From Paludibacteraceae bacterium (GTDB taxonomy: Bacteria > Bacteroidota > Bacteroidia > Bacteroidales > Paludibacteraceae), in NCBI GenBank assembly GCA_905234835.1, contig CAJOIZ010000007.1:45561-109560 (forward strand): a stretch of 64,000 bases of DNA, in the 5' to 3' direction. Below, in pieces: positions 19,012 to 25,170 of this stretch. Numbering within the stretch: the first letter of the stretch is position 1; each line of letters starts with the position of its first letter. The notes below the pieces were generated by a model that saw only the letters and a list, made by a program, of their open reading frames with translations, was not told the origin of the DNA and made no database searches. The translations under genes were made by a program, and so were the position numbers.

Positions 19012-19500
19012 CAGCACAGGTCCGAGCAACGGAATACTCCTGAATATCAGGGGTATTCTGTTGCTATGCGTTGCGTCGGTCATACGACATACCTACTTAT
19101 GTCGAATCGTCAGCTAATTACTATGTCAAAGATCACTTGCAGTTTGTGAATGGGGAGCTGCAATCCGCCCCGCCGTTCCGCAGCGCTATGTTGTGGCAAT
19201 CGTCGTACATAGGTGATGGCACTCTGCTACACGAACAGAAACAGAAAAAAGAAAACATCCTGTACGATAGATGCCCCTTCCCGTCCTTATCCGCCTGTGC
19301 ACAAGGCGGATAATACGTCTGACTGCCACTTGTAATACGCCTCACGGCGTGAGGTCATTTCCACTGAAAAGACGTGCAAAGATAATACATTTTTGGGCAA
19401 AATGCAAGAGCTTTTGAAAGATTTGTGATTTCAAATTTCAAATTGCAAATTTCACATTGCAAATTTGTTTGTTTAGGAGGTTTATGCGTTTTAGGATGCC

Positions 19501-21014: not shown

Positions 21015-21044
21015 AAGCACAACTAAAAGGTGGTTATATGTGAA

Positions 21045-21084
21045 TTTCACGGCTACCTCCGAGGAGTTCGATAGGAAGAAAAAG
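21045..21084. repeat. Gene-fragment repeat, copy 2
   Basis: 40 bases, 36 of them identical to 21804-21843. The core is GAGGAGTTCGATAGGAAGAA. It lies 30 bases after the fic1 stop codon. Confidence 0.75.
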
Positions 21085-21121
21085 AAACAGGAAGCGGGCG
21101 ATTTGAACCCGAATGAGATTA

Positions 21122-21146
21122 TTAGCCGCAAGGGCGCGATAATTTC
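21122..21146. repeat. Dispersed TTAGCCGCAAGGGC repeat, copy 1
   Basis: 25 bases matching 23823-23847 at 23 positions (TTAGCCGCAAGGGCnCGAT, then nATTTC). The second copy is just downstream of fic2, so each copy lies next to the 3' end of a fic gene. Confidence 0.6.
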
Positions 21147-21170
21147 CGAGCAAAGGACAAACGCTATGAA

Positions 21171-21579
21171 CCCGAATGAGATTCGGGGCTAATTGACGAA
21201 GGAATAAGGGTTCCCTGCCGCTACAAGAGACGAAAGGGCTGCGAATAAAATTCGCAGGCAATAAAAAGACAGAAGGCAATAAAAGAAAAAGACAAAAGAC
21301 AATAAAAGAAAAAGACAGAAGGCTATAAGAAACAAACAGAAGGCTATCCGTGGGGGTAGCCTTCTAGTGTGATAGAGGTGCGGATAGTATCCGCACGAAA
21401 TGAACGAAACCTACTTGCGGGATGAACCGCAAGAGCAGAACCATTTTCGGCAGAGCCGATGTTCAAATAGTATTTGAACGCAATGGACAAAACCACATCC
21501 ACTACAGACGGCTCTGGGGAGTCGTGTCTGAATAAAATTCAGACATAATAGACGGAGTGAATGCCGATTGGCAATCGGC
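21171..21579. repeat. Array of eight different short palindromes
   Basis: Stems and loops: 21171-21187 (CCCGAAT, 3-base loop), 21239-21257 (CTGCGAAT, loop AAA), 21338-21365 (AGAAGGCTA, 10-base loop), 21378-21396 (GTGCGGATA around a central G), 21414-21433 (CTTGCGG, 6-base loop), 21461-21479 (GTTCAAATA around a central G), 21526-21544 (GTCTGAAT, loop AAA) and 21563-21579 (GCCGATT, loop GGC). All stems are perfect, yet they differ in sequence; several share the centre ATAAAAT or ATAGTAT. An additional 8-bp inverted repeat (CAGAGCCG 21451-21458 / CGGCTCTG 21509-21516) encloses one of them. Confidence 0.8.
21257..21342. repeat. A-rich tandem repeat
   Basis: Four imperfect units of 18-23 bases of the type GGCAATAAAAGAAAAAGACA, ending in the hairpin at 21338-21365. 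Confidence 0.65.
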
Positions 21580-21705
21580 GAAAAGAGAAGAATACAGCAA
21601 GCGGGGGGCAATGGATGCTCCGCGCTTGGAGATAAGATAGAGAGAGATGTCGGGACAAGGATATGTCGAAAAGGGGGGGTATTTCACCTCCTGACCTTGG
21701 AGGGA

Positions 21706-21852
21706 GTGTCTTATGTTGCTATGCAGGCAGTGGCTGTCGGTTTCATCATCGGTGTCGTCCAAGACTCCGTCGAAACCGCCCTCAACAGCAGCGGCGATGT
21801 GTTTTTTACGGCTACTGCCGAGGAGTTCGATCGGAAGAAAAAGGGAGAATAA
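21706..21852 (+). CDS. Small hypothetical ORF (48 aa)
   Basis: GTG start at 21706 with GGAGGG just upstream, unusual in this genome; an ATG at 21721 is the alternative. The peptide has a short hydrophobic stretch ([13 protein letters not shown]), then [15 protein letters not shown] and ends with the repeated [13 protein letters not shown] segment. It reads more like protein than the surrounding repeats, but I do not recognise it. It could be the surviving C-terminal part of an older gene whose end was copied to 21045-21084 and 19719-19756. Confidence 0.3.
21804..21843. repeat. Gene-fragment repeat, copy 3
   Basis: 40 bases with 36 identical to copy 2 (21045-21084). It lies at the end of the small ORF 21706-21852. 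Confidence 0.75.
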
Positions 21853-22024
21853 AAGCGACAATCAGATTGCTGAATGTAAGAACGGCGAATACAGATATAA
21901 ACGCGGAAATTAGGTAATTACGATGATGTCCGAATTCGATTCAGACGCAATTGACAAAGTATCCAAATAATAGACGAAGCCATTGGACGGTGTTTACTAA
22001 ACGCCTATAACTGCCAAGAAAAAC

Positions 22025-22056
22025 AAAGCCGCCTCGCTGAATGGCGAGACGACTTT
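22025..22056 (-). terminator. Terminator of the FN3 lipoprotein gene
   Basis: On the minus strand a 13-bp stem (AAAGTCGTCTCGC / GCGAGGCGGCTTT, two G-U wobbles, 6-base loop) is followed by TTTGTTTTTC. It begins 16 bases after the stop at 22072. The wobbles make it stable only as minus-strand RNA, which agrees with the gene direction. Confidence 0.75.
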
Positions 22057-22071
22057 GACCTTTATTGATTT

Positions 22072-23184
22072 TTAATAGTACCATTTCTTTTCATCAATCA
22101 TATAAACTAACGTACGAGTATCTGTTCCGTAATCATTTGTGGCTCTTATAGCGATTTTAACAGAACCGTACTCATCCCTATAACCAGTATAGTATCCTCT
22201 TATCTTATGTGAGCCTGATGTGACACTGCTTCCTGTATATGTTCCATCAACTACCCATCCCCAGCCATCATAAGTTTCGTTTCCGATAGGGTCATGAATC
22301 CATACTTCTATTTTATCTGCTGCATCCCAGCCCAATCCGCTACCTGATTTCGTTTTCCATTTTACTGTGATATAATTACCACTAACACTACCACTTACTT
22401 CGGTGATAAGCGGACCATAATGTTGTTCATTTCCACCTCCGCCACCTCCTCCTGAATTGATTTTGGCAGAAGCGTAGGCACTTTTTCCGCTTTCCCCTGC
22501 ACTATTTTCTGCTGTGACTTTGTAATAATAGGTAGTCCCAGCATTGACATTATAGTCTGTATAGGAAGTAGAATAAACTGTAGAAATGAAAGAATAAGTA
22601 CCACTTGCAGAAGTAGAACGATAGACGTTGTAATTATCTGCTCCGCTTACAGACTTCCATGTAACAGTTATATATGACGAGCTGGCAGTTGCTTCCACTC
22701 CGGATGGCGTATTCGGTTTTGAAGTAGTTCCTCCGCCTCCGCCAGAGTTACCATTAAATGTAATCTGGTCATATGCGATTTCACCATTATTGCCATTTGC
22801 ATCAATTGCAGTTACTCCATAAATATATGTTGCACCAGCGGTCACATCATAATCCTTATAACTCGTTGATGTGGTTTCCCCGAGTATATACCATGTTTCC
22901 TCATCCTTATTATACCATAAGGCATAATAGCCAACAGCCCCAGTTACTTTATTCCATGATAATTTAACATATTCCGAAGTTTGTGACAATTTAAAGCCTG
23001 TTGGTGCAGAGAGAGAACTGGTTCCCCCACCTCCTCCACCAGAGCTATTTTTTTCAAAACTACATGACACATACACTGATTCAGACCAACCATAAGTACT
23101 TCCACATGCTCGTAACTCATAATTATTCAGCCCTTCTTTAGGAGATTGATCAGTAAAGGAAGTTGAACTAATATGTTTAGTCAT
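22072..23184 (-). CDS. Fibronectin type III repeat lipoprotein, signal peptide out of frame
   Basis: The track ORF (370 aa) lacks an export signal. The same frame continues upstream through another FN3 strand set (GFVAKQVGNAIELTWNRVYE) and the lipobox region ALCLISCEEEK, but it meets a stop before any start codon. An ATG at 23386 begins MKKTLLAFIT in a different frame that stops after 25 codons. Deleting one copy of the perfect 19-bp duplication at 23337-23374 joins them into one lipoprotein with a normal signal. The protein has three FN3 domains linked by glycine runs (SSGGGGGG, GGGGG, SGGGGGGG) and a last beta domain ending in DEKKWYY. It is probably a surface protein; the DNA looks more AT-rich than its neighbours. 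Function unknown. Confidence 0.8.
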   Translation of the reverse strand: MTKHISSTSFTDQSPKEGLNNYELRACGSTYGWSESVYVSCSFEKNSSGGGGGGTSSLSAPTGFKLSQTSEYVKLSWNKVTGAVGYYALWYNKDEETWYILGETTSTSYKDYDVTAGATYIYGVTAIDANGNNGEIAYDQITFNGNSGGGGGTTSKPNTPSGVEATASSSYITVTWKSVSGADNYNVYRSTSASGTYSFISTVYSTSYTDYNVNAGTTYYYKVTAENSAGESGKSAYASAKINSGGGGGGGNEQHYGPLITEVSGSVSGNYITVKWKTKSGSGLGWDAADKIEVWIHDPIGNETYDGWGWVVDGTYTGSSVTSGSHKIRGYYTGYRDEYGSVKIAIRATNDYGTDTRTLVYMIDEKKWYY

Positions 23185-25121: not shown

Positions 25122-25170
25122 CGCAACTGCCTACATAAAAGCCCGGTTGGCTTTTATGTAGGCAGTTGCG
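25122..25170. repeat. Perfect 22-bp inverted repeat with 5-base loop
   Basis: Left arm starts CGCAACTGCCTACATAAAAG; the right arm is its exact complement; loop CGGTT. It lies 45 bases past the nrdG stop on the minus strand, so it could end or protect the nrdDG transcript, but no T-run follows on either strand. Confidence 0.85.

Follow-up and report, generated by a model that had tools for sequence, protein, structure and literature searches.

The array described here occupies positions 21171-21579 of a 64-kb stretch of DNA (the window, by which we mean the whole stretch that was analysed) from the host genome, a rumen Paludibacteraceae MAG that is 98% complete. It is made up of hairpins, six of which follow short tags on the minus strand. 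The features of the locus are listed below, where HP2 stands for the second hairpin of a repeat unit and RAYT for the REP-associated tyrosine transposases considered later.

21108..21150, minus strand: second A-type copy with one arm split by an insertion (ATTATCGCGCCCTTGCGGCTAATA), like insertions in two other host loci (L021, L031)
21171..21187, minus strand: module A hairpin, CCCGAAT-CTC-ATTCGGG; its stem is that of most RAYT-embedded hairpins in the genus
21188..21200, minus strand: module A tag, TTCGTCAATTAGC in the minus-strand reading
21239..21257, minus strand: module D hairpin, CTGCGAAT-TTT-ATTCGCAG, with its tag at 21258-21270; about 20 copies in its own genome
21260..21341, minus strand: 23-nt direct repeat, present three times between modules D and E
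21338..21365, minus strand: module E hairpin, AGAAGGCTACC...GGATAGCCTTCT, with one mismatch and a T-rich tail on the minus strand
21378..21396, minus strand: module F hairpin, GTGCGGAT-ACT-ATCCGCAC, with its tag at 21397-21408
21414..21433, minus strand: module G hairpin, CTTGCGG-TTCATC-CCGCAAG
21447..21459, minus strand: second hairpin HP2, TCGGC-TCT-GCCGA, after module H
21461..21479, minus strand: module H hairpin, GTTCAAAT-ACT-ATTTGAAC, with its tag at 21480-21492
21509..21524, minus strand: HP2 copy, CGACTC-CCCA-GAGCCG, with one mismatch, after module I
21525..21545, minus strand: module I hairpin, TGTCTGAAT-TTT-ATTCAGACA; the stem also lies inside a RAYT gene of a relative (G002, locus L198)
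21563..21579, minus strand: module J hairpin, GCCGATT-GCC-AATCGGC
21680..21699, minus strand: relic of a coding end ('...QGQEVK') from the C-terminal tail of a surface protein; in the array sense it lies upstream
21928..21946, minus strand: extra module I copy, GTCTGAAT-CGA-ATTCGGAC, with one T-G pair and the tag TTTGTCAATTGC
22024..22057, minus strand: strong intrinsic terminator of the gene at 22072-23184(-), before the array

Three further repeats were seen in the window. A 47-nt direct repeat, 87% identical between its copies, lies on both sides of the array (21038-21084 and 21797-21843). At 25122-25170, towards the end of an ORF rich in repeats, there is a perfect inverted repeat (CGCAACTGCCTACATAAAAGCC) whose 22-bp arms enclose a 5-nt loop. 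A second dispersed repeat (CCTCACG-G-CGTGAGGTCATTTCCACTGAAA...) is present in two places, at 19340-19370 of the window and near the array of another host locus (L024).

The first-pass annotation of this stretch reported eight perfect palindromes, no two of which had the same stem. Seven are indeed perfect inverted repeats with a stem of at least 7 and a loop of at most 6 (modules A, D, F, G, H, I and J), and the eighth, module E, contains a single mismatched pair. The common centres AATAAAATT and ATAGTAT, flanked by differing stems, are present as described there. Across 1000 dinucleotide shuffles of 21171-21579 the hairpin count averaged 0.09 and never exceeded 3, compared with the 7 observed in 409 bp; the palindrome density is thus not reproduced by shuffling, and chance clustering is ruled out. 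Since the full 64-kb window is at chance level overall (27 hairpins, against 17-29 in shuffles), the cluster is local. A 611-nt stretch folds better than shuffled versions of it whichever strand is taken (z = -8.5 and -8.6), which is what any cluster of palindromes would give. The sole match above the gathering score in an Rfam search of the window was a tRNA, with nothing for the array. On the minus strand, similar tags precede six of the array's stems, namely TTCGTCAATTAGC, CTTTTTATTGC, TTCGTTCATTTC, TTTGTCCATTGC, CCGTCTATTA and a weak CTTCTCTTTTC.

Every stem of the array represents a repeated family elsewhere in the host genome, where pieces of the array gave 71 BLAST matches. The dissimilarity of the stems therefore holds within one array but not genome-wide, since an array draws a single copy from each of several repeat families. 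Reading 34 loci, we found about 12 hairpin modules, each with a characteristic stem that recurs across the genome, arranged in varied order in one-directional mosaic arrays. A covariance model of the tag and the first hairpin, HP1 (tag TTYGTCNATTGC, 8-bp stem, 3-nt loop), identified 122 copies in the host, whose arrays number 38. On the minus strand, the typical unit runs from the tag TTYGTCNATTGC, conserved at one foot of the stem, to HP1, often followed by A or AT and HP2, and then to CTTGTAAAG. HP1 is built as 8 bp, 3 nt and 8 bp (GTNNGAAT NNN ATTCNNAC), where the stem has AT next to the loop, and the typical form of HP2 is CGGCTC-NNNN-GAGCCG. HP1 is succeeded by HP2 in 26 of 44 units of the host and in 18 of 44 units of its relatives, against about one in shuffles, and the HP2 stem, too, differs in its entirety from species to species, as with AACAAC...GTTGTT in one relative (G024).

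In an alignment of 62 tag-anchored units whose rows were selected for pairing, 98.8% of stem pair cells form a pair against 78.4% after shuffling, and both partners have changed in 100 cells, against a shuffled mean of 26; slid controls of the stem alignment reach at most 44% pairing. Because these rows had been chosen for pairing, we also tested every tag match regardless of pairing. In the array sense, 72 of 182 such matches lead, at the fixed spacing, to a stem with 7 or more of its 8 pairs formed, compared with none of 23 tag matches elsewhere in the window, and there are almost no cases of intermediate pairing. In module I the fourth stem position takes each of the four Watson-Crick pairs, with the adjacent pairs unchanged. 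The earlier observation that symmetry is kept and sequence is not holds, and it is not due to chance. GTAG is absent from the stem foot in all 62 rows of the alignment, so that the family lacks the canonical REP tag, GT[AG]G.

The named relatives matched by one of the modules are likewise rumen Paludibacteraceae MAGs. Absence from relatives, which the first-pass annotation had given as a ground for refutation, is not what we see: the covariance model finds 2-36 copies in each of 20 of the 24 further genus members examined, whereas 16 genomes from other families have essentially none. Stems vary by species (GTCCAAAT, GTTCGGAT, GTCGGGAT, GCCGGAAT and others), whereas tag and geometry remain constant.

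In one relative (G008, locus L174) units both flank and lie inside a 370-aa ORF (L174:796-1908(-)) with the motifs MPDHLH and RYVQMNPQRLA. Relatives of this ORF, 330-460 aa long and mostly with PDHLH, are encoded in 17 of 25 genus genomes, the host included, in up to about six copies. They possess an HUH motif and a downstream catalytic Tyr in Y-x-x-x-N-P, and the G-Y-T, HxH and Y-N-P columns of their alignment are invariant. The model NF047646 (REP-associated tyrosine transposase) matches all 21 aligned members, with a best E-value of 8.8e-12 and a score of 18 bits for the displayed member against a cut-off of 80, and PF01797 matches 14 of the 21 (best 7.5e-4). The AF2 model was matched by Foldseek to 2xm3, 2vjv and 4er8 with probability 1.00, and the predicted structure resembles ISDra2 TnpA, IS608 TnpA and the E. 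coli TnpA_REP (4er8), that is, the Y1/HUH fold. We take the ORF family to be a divergent REP-associated HUH/Y1 transposase (RAYT).

A profile search of 396 Bacteroidota genomes recovered the RAYT core (positions ~10-205) in 124 of them; among the matches listed, none from outside the genus reached the C-terminal 150 residues. When the C-terminal domain was modelled alone (pLDDT 91), high-probability matches were to DprA and the DprA-like ShosA only. The RAYTs of this genus (L174, L187-L216) are thus predicted to carry a C-terminal DprA-like domain that is found, among the matches listed, in this genus only. Among the papers searched, as far as titles and abstracts tell, there are co-mentions of RAYT and DprA and no description of a fusion of the two.

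A perfect hairpin (stem of at least 7, loop of 3) is present in 18 of 22 RAYT ORFs, compared with 3% of random 1.1-kb pieces. These hairpins are in frame and lie between the HUH and Tyr halves of the gene, most of them at residues 122-177; AlphaFold predicts residues 122-172 to be disordered. Copies often flank the RAYT genes as well (L187, L188, L190, L191, L214 and others). Stems are identical in 33 of 52 pairs from the same locus and in 195 of 938 pairs between loci (permutation p<1e-4), and locus-specific stems include CCCGACT in L191 and L200, four copies of CGGCGAT in L214 and two of TCCGAAT in L207, while CCCCGAAT occurs at both L187 and L188. The modules of the window are part of this picture: the module A stem CCCGAAT is the commonest RAYT stem, and the module I stem in the RAYT gene of G002 is GTCTGAAT. 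None of the four hairpin-free genomes has a RAYT, and each of the 17 genomes that do have one also has hairpins (Fisher p=0.0055, for genomes that are related and not independent). The number of hairpins correlates weakly with the number of RAYTs (rho 0.32, p=0.12), and three genomes (G012, G016, G021) have many hairpins with no RAYT found, for which gaps in the MAGs are a possible reason. The one-to-one pairing of RAYT and stem is not strict, because in G024 the commonest dispersed stem, GTTCGGAT, differs from the RAYT-flanking stem, CCCCGAAT. Cognate pairing is therefore a tendency and not a rule.

A canonical Pfam Y1_Tnp search of the host genome gave no match, which at first suggested a host without RAYT; a search with the enzyme of a relative as query and with a profile overturned this. 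The host encodes one intact, diverged RAYT of 418 aa (L203), flanked and interrupted by the tag CTTTGTTAGGTGCGC and a hairpin with the core CGTCAG. The same tag and core, with a changed stem, are found in three host arrays (L033, L039, L046); the intact RAYT is not paired with the commonest modules. At this locus (L203:741-1030, 1402-1500 and 2074-2136), units of 74 bp are repeated in tandem ahead of the gene, and the tag and hairpin that interrupt it give in-frame repeats like 'GLTSGAPNKEN'. From position 236768 of contig C1 onward (L218; G000:C1:236768) there is also the relic of a decayed RAYT gene, incomplete and broken up by stops and frame changes, in which pieces of the C-terminal domain stand in different frames. 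The main host modules may be the legacy of RAYTs that are now lost, or that are absent from the 98%-complete MAG.

Taken together, we regard it as likely that REP-like elements make up the array as a mosaic, each consisting of the tag TTYGTCNATTGC followed by a perfect hairpin (stem 7-9 bp, loop 3 nt), and that a RAYT family specific to the genus uses these hairpins as non-autonomous units to be moved or cleaved; the mobility of the hairpins is something we infer. The first-pass annotation had offered a structure-based recognition site among its explanations, and this fits best of those it named; its argument that a REP or transposon family would keep its stem fails here, as this REP-like, RAYT-tied family has diversifying stems.

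The placement of the arrays bears on what else the hairpins could be. Host arrays lie nearly always just 3' of a gene, several beginning no more than a few bases from a stop codon. In the gaps between tandem genes (24 arrays), the tag strand is in the sense of the upstream gene in 23 cases and opposite in one, and none of the 38 arrays is mixed in strand. Transcription, replication strand and co-copying with gene ends are candidate causes of this strict orientation. Such an arrangement also fits a structured 3'-UTR RNA, in which the hairpins would be transcribed from the upstream gene and would terminate or stabilise the RNA, with selection on the RNA keeping the pairing. Modules C, E and K do resemble a hairpin with a T-rich tail, but HP1 has no U tract. 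Among non-Watson-Crick pairs in the gene sense, G-U exceeds A-C by 12:4 in the host (p ~0.08) and by 6:3 in relatives (p ~0.5), an asymmetry that is suggestive only as a sign of RNA selection. Orientation is looser in relatives (12:5 for hairpins in tandem gaps), hairpins of the family are also found inside and around transposase genes, and transcription of the window array is doubtful because the gene at 22072 is separated from it by a strong intrinsic terminator. We therefore consider a 3'-UTR RNA unlikely as the primary explanation. The many-hairpin RNA suggested by the earlier annotation retains the gene-sense orientation and the weak G-U excess in its favour as a secondary role, against which the terminator stands, and such a role could coexist with RAYT mobilisation as a later one.

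It is considerably less probable that the array arose by mutation alone, through hairpin-templated repair or template switching that copies one arm onto the other with neither enzyme nor selection. Stems that are perfect or nearly so with few intermediates, and several copies with arms split by insertions, are in keeping with such a process, which nevertheless leaves the conserved tag, the roughly 12 dispersed families, the fixed orientation and the copies in RAYT genes unexplained. Repeated template switching, also proposed at first pass, finds no support as the sole cause, given that copies have tag, orientation and dispersal in common; arm-to-arm mutation may be the way in which stems change in step. 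One such arm was seen in an array orthologous between the host and G016, inherited vertically, where a hairpin arm differs by 21 nt: the insertion in the host (L031:1837-1876) is absent in G016 (L163:1557-1575), and similar insertions recur in four further arrays (L022, L033, L050, L054). Since the array at this locus was inherited vertically, much of it is old, a point that counts against the RAYT reading.

Around 12 of the 38 arrays directly follow genes with the tail RKYIxNGILYIxRNGIxYxAQGQRLD, where about 5% would be expected at random by our own estimate, which assumes 2,000-odd genes. The tail has 104 matches in the host genome (L087-L156). About 100 host proteins end in RKxIxNGxLYIxRNGxxYxxQGQRLD, with examples that contain LRR_5, InlB B-repeat and choice-of-anchor domains, and Pfam and NCBIfam sorting-domain models do not match this C-terminal tail. 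In G003 and G006 a unit begins right past the stop codon of a gene with a similar tail. Out-of-frame relics of the tail precede the arrays of L021, L023 and the window, and hence tail end and array sometimes move together. That the hairpins are mere passengers of a surface-protein 3'-end cassette, spread with the tail by homologous recombination through the common C-terminal sequence, is nonetheless the least probable of these alternatives: the majority of tail genes lack an array, many arrays come after genes of other kinds, and in relatives the hairpins occur outside this context. A cassette of this kind can explain some of the spread but not the origin.

GTCTGAA resembles the DNA uptake sequence (DUS) of Neisseria, which is a single sequence kept across roughly a thousand copies or more; with some 122 copies and many stems, uptake sequences are ruled out here. 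Integron attC sites are ruled out by the absence of gene cassettes, and coding repeats by the position of the arrays outside genes and in frames with stops. A search of the Porphyromonas MITE/BIME literature gave nothing that matches the array.

Returning to mobilisation by RAYT, the enzyme would most probably bind hairpin and tag as single-stranded DNA, cleave on the tag side and paste a copy into intergenic DNA. Each RAYT paralog would keep a preferred stem, and stems would therefore diverge in step with the enzymes but leave tag and shape as they were. Successive insertions beside older copies, together with recombination between copies, could then produce one-directional mosaic arrays, and this recombination might sometimes carry along the 3' end of surface-protein genes. 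More tentatively, and with the balance of probability somewhat against it in full, we propose a genus-restricted RAYT class that combines an HUH/Y1 core with a DprA-like ssDNA-binding domain and carries its own hairpin in frame, with paralogs and stems changing together, many REP families per genome that share a tag and differ in stem, and one-directional arrays near surface-protein genes that serve as recombination or 3'-end cassettes.

How RAYTs and hairpins co-evolve, and of what use RAYTs are to the cell, are open questions in the field. Because the genus has many RAYT paralogs with a hairpin inside each such gene, each enzyme can be set against its own stem, which gives a natural data set on how the two change together; the stem inside the gene can be swapped, so that RAYT specificity can be tested. 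The predicted DprA-like domain suggests a new link between the handling of single-stranded DNA and the spread of REPs. Palindromes of the same shape in different letters can be a REP family without GTAG, one that searches based on tag or stem would miss.

The nearest parallel is the REP/BIME system of E. coli with its TnpA_REP (RAYT), which likewise consists of short 5'-tagged hairpins in many intergenic copies and mosaic clusters, with an HUH/Y1 transposase gene flanked by the repeat and a structure (4er8) that the fold predicted here matches. The present family differs in its tag, TTYGTCNATTGC instead of GT[AG]G, in having many stems per genome and in the additional DprA-like domain predicted for its enzyme; its arrays are all one-directional (0 of 38 mixed), whereas the REPs of BIMEs alternate. 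TnpA_REP subclass 2.4 (RAYT group 4), from Bacteroidetes and Cyanobacteria, has a REP inside the gene between HUH and Y, 'double foot' GT[AG]G REPs, a W-Q motif, NH[IFV]H and a length of about 194 aa (PMC6006769). The genus RAYTs share the in-frame REP between HUH and Y (18 of 22 ORFs) but are set apart by description, being 330-460 aa long, mostly with PDHLH, and having another tag and an extra domain. Subclass 2.6 (RAYT group 5) comes from Bacteroidetes, with atypical hairpins that lack GT[AG]G, proteins of 179 aa and no in-gene REP reported (PMC6006769); our family is also from Bacteroidetes and also lacks GT[AG]G, but its genes carry a REP inside. CGTC-tagged REPs have heterogeneous 8-9 bp stems with AT as first pairs, a CCA tail and no known transposase (PMC3733652). 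Stem length, stem heterogeneity and a CGTC-like tag are common to both, although CGTC lies about 6 nt from the stem here. REPINs are inverted REP doublets, and REP populations are each linked to a RAYT, with clusters that adjoin RAYT genes (PMC3116915); here too repeat populations are tied to RAYT and clustered beside RAYT genes, but the HP1-HP2 pairs are in tandem and in one direction. The genus family therefore belongs to the REP/RAYT kind, filed under neither subclass 2.4 nor BIME, and what is new relative to known REP/RAYT systems is its tag, its one-way arrays, the variety of stems within a genome and the predicted DprA-like domain.
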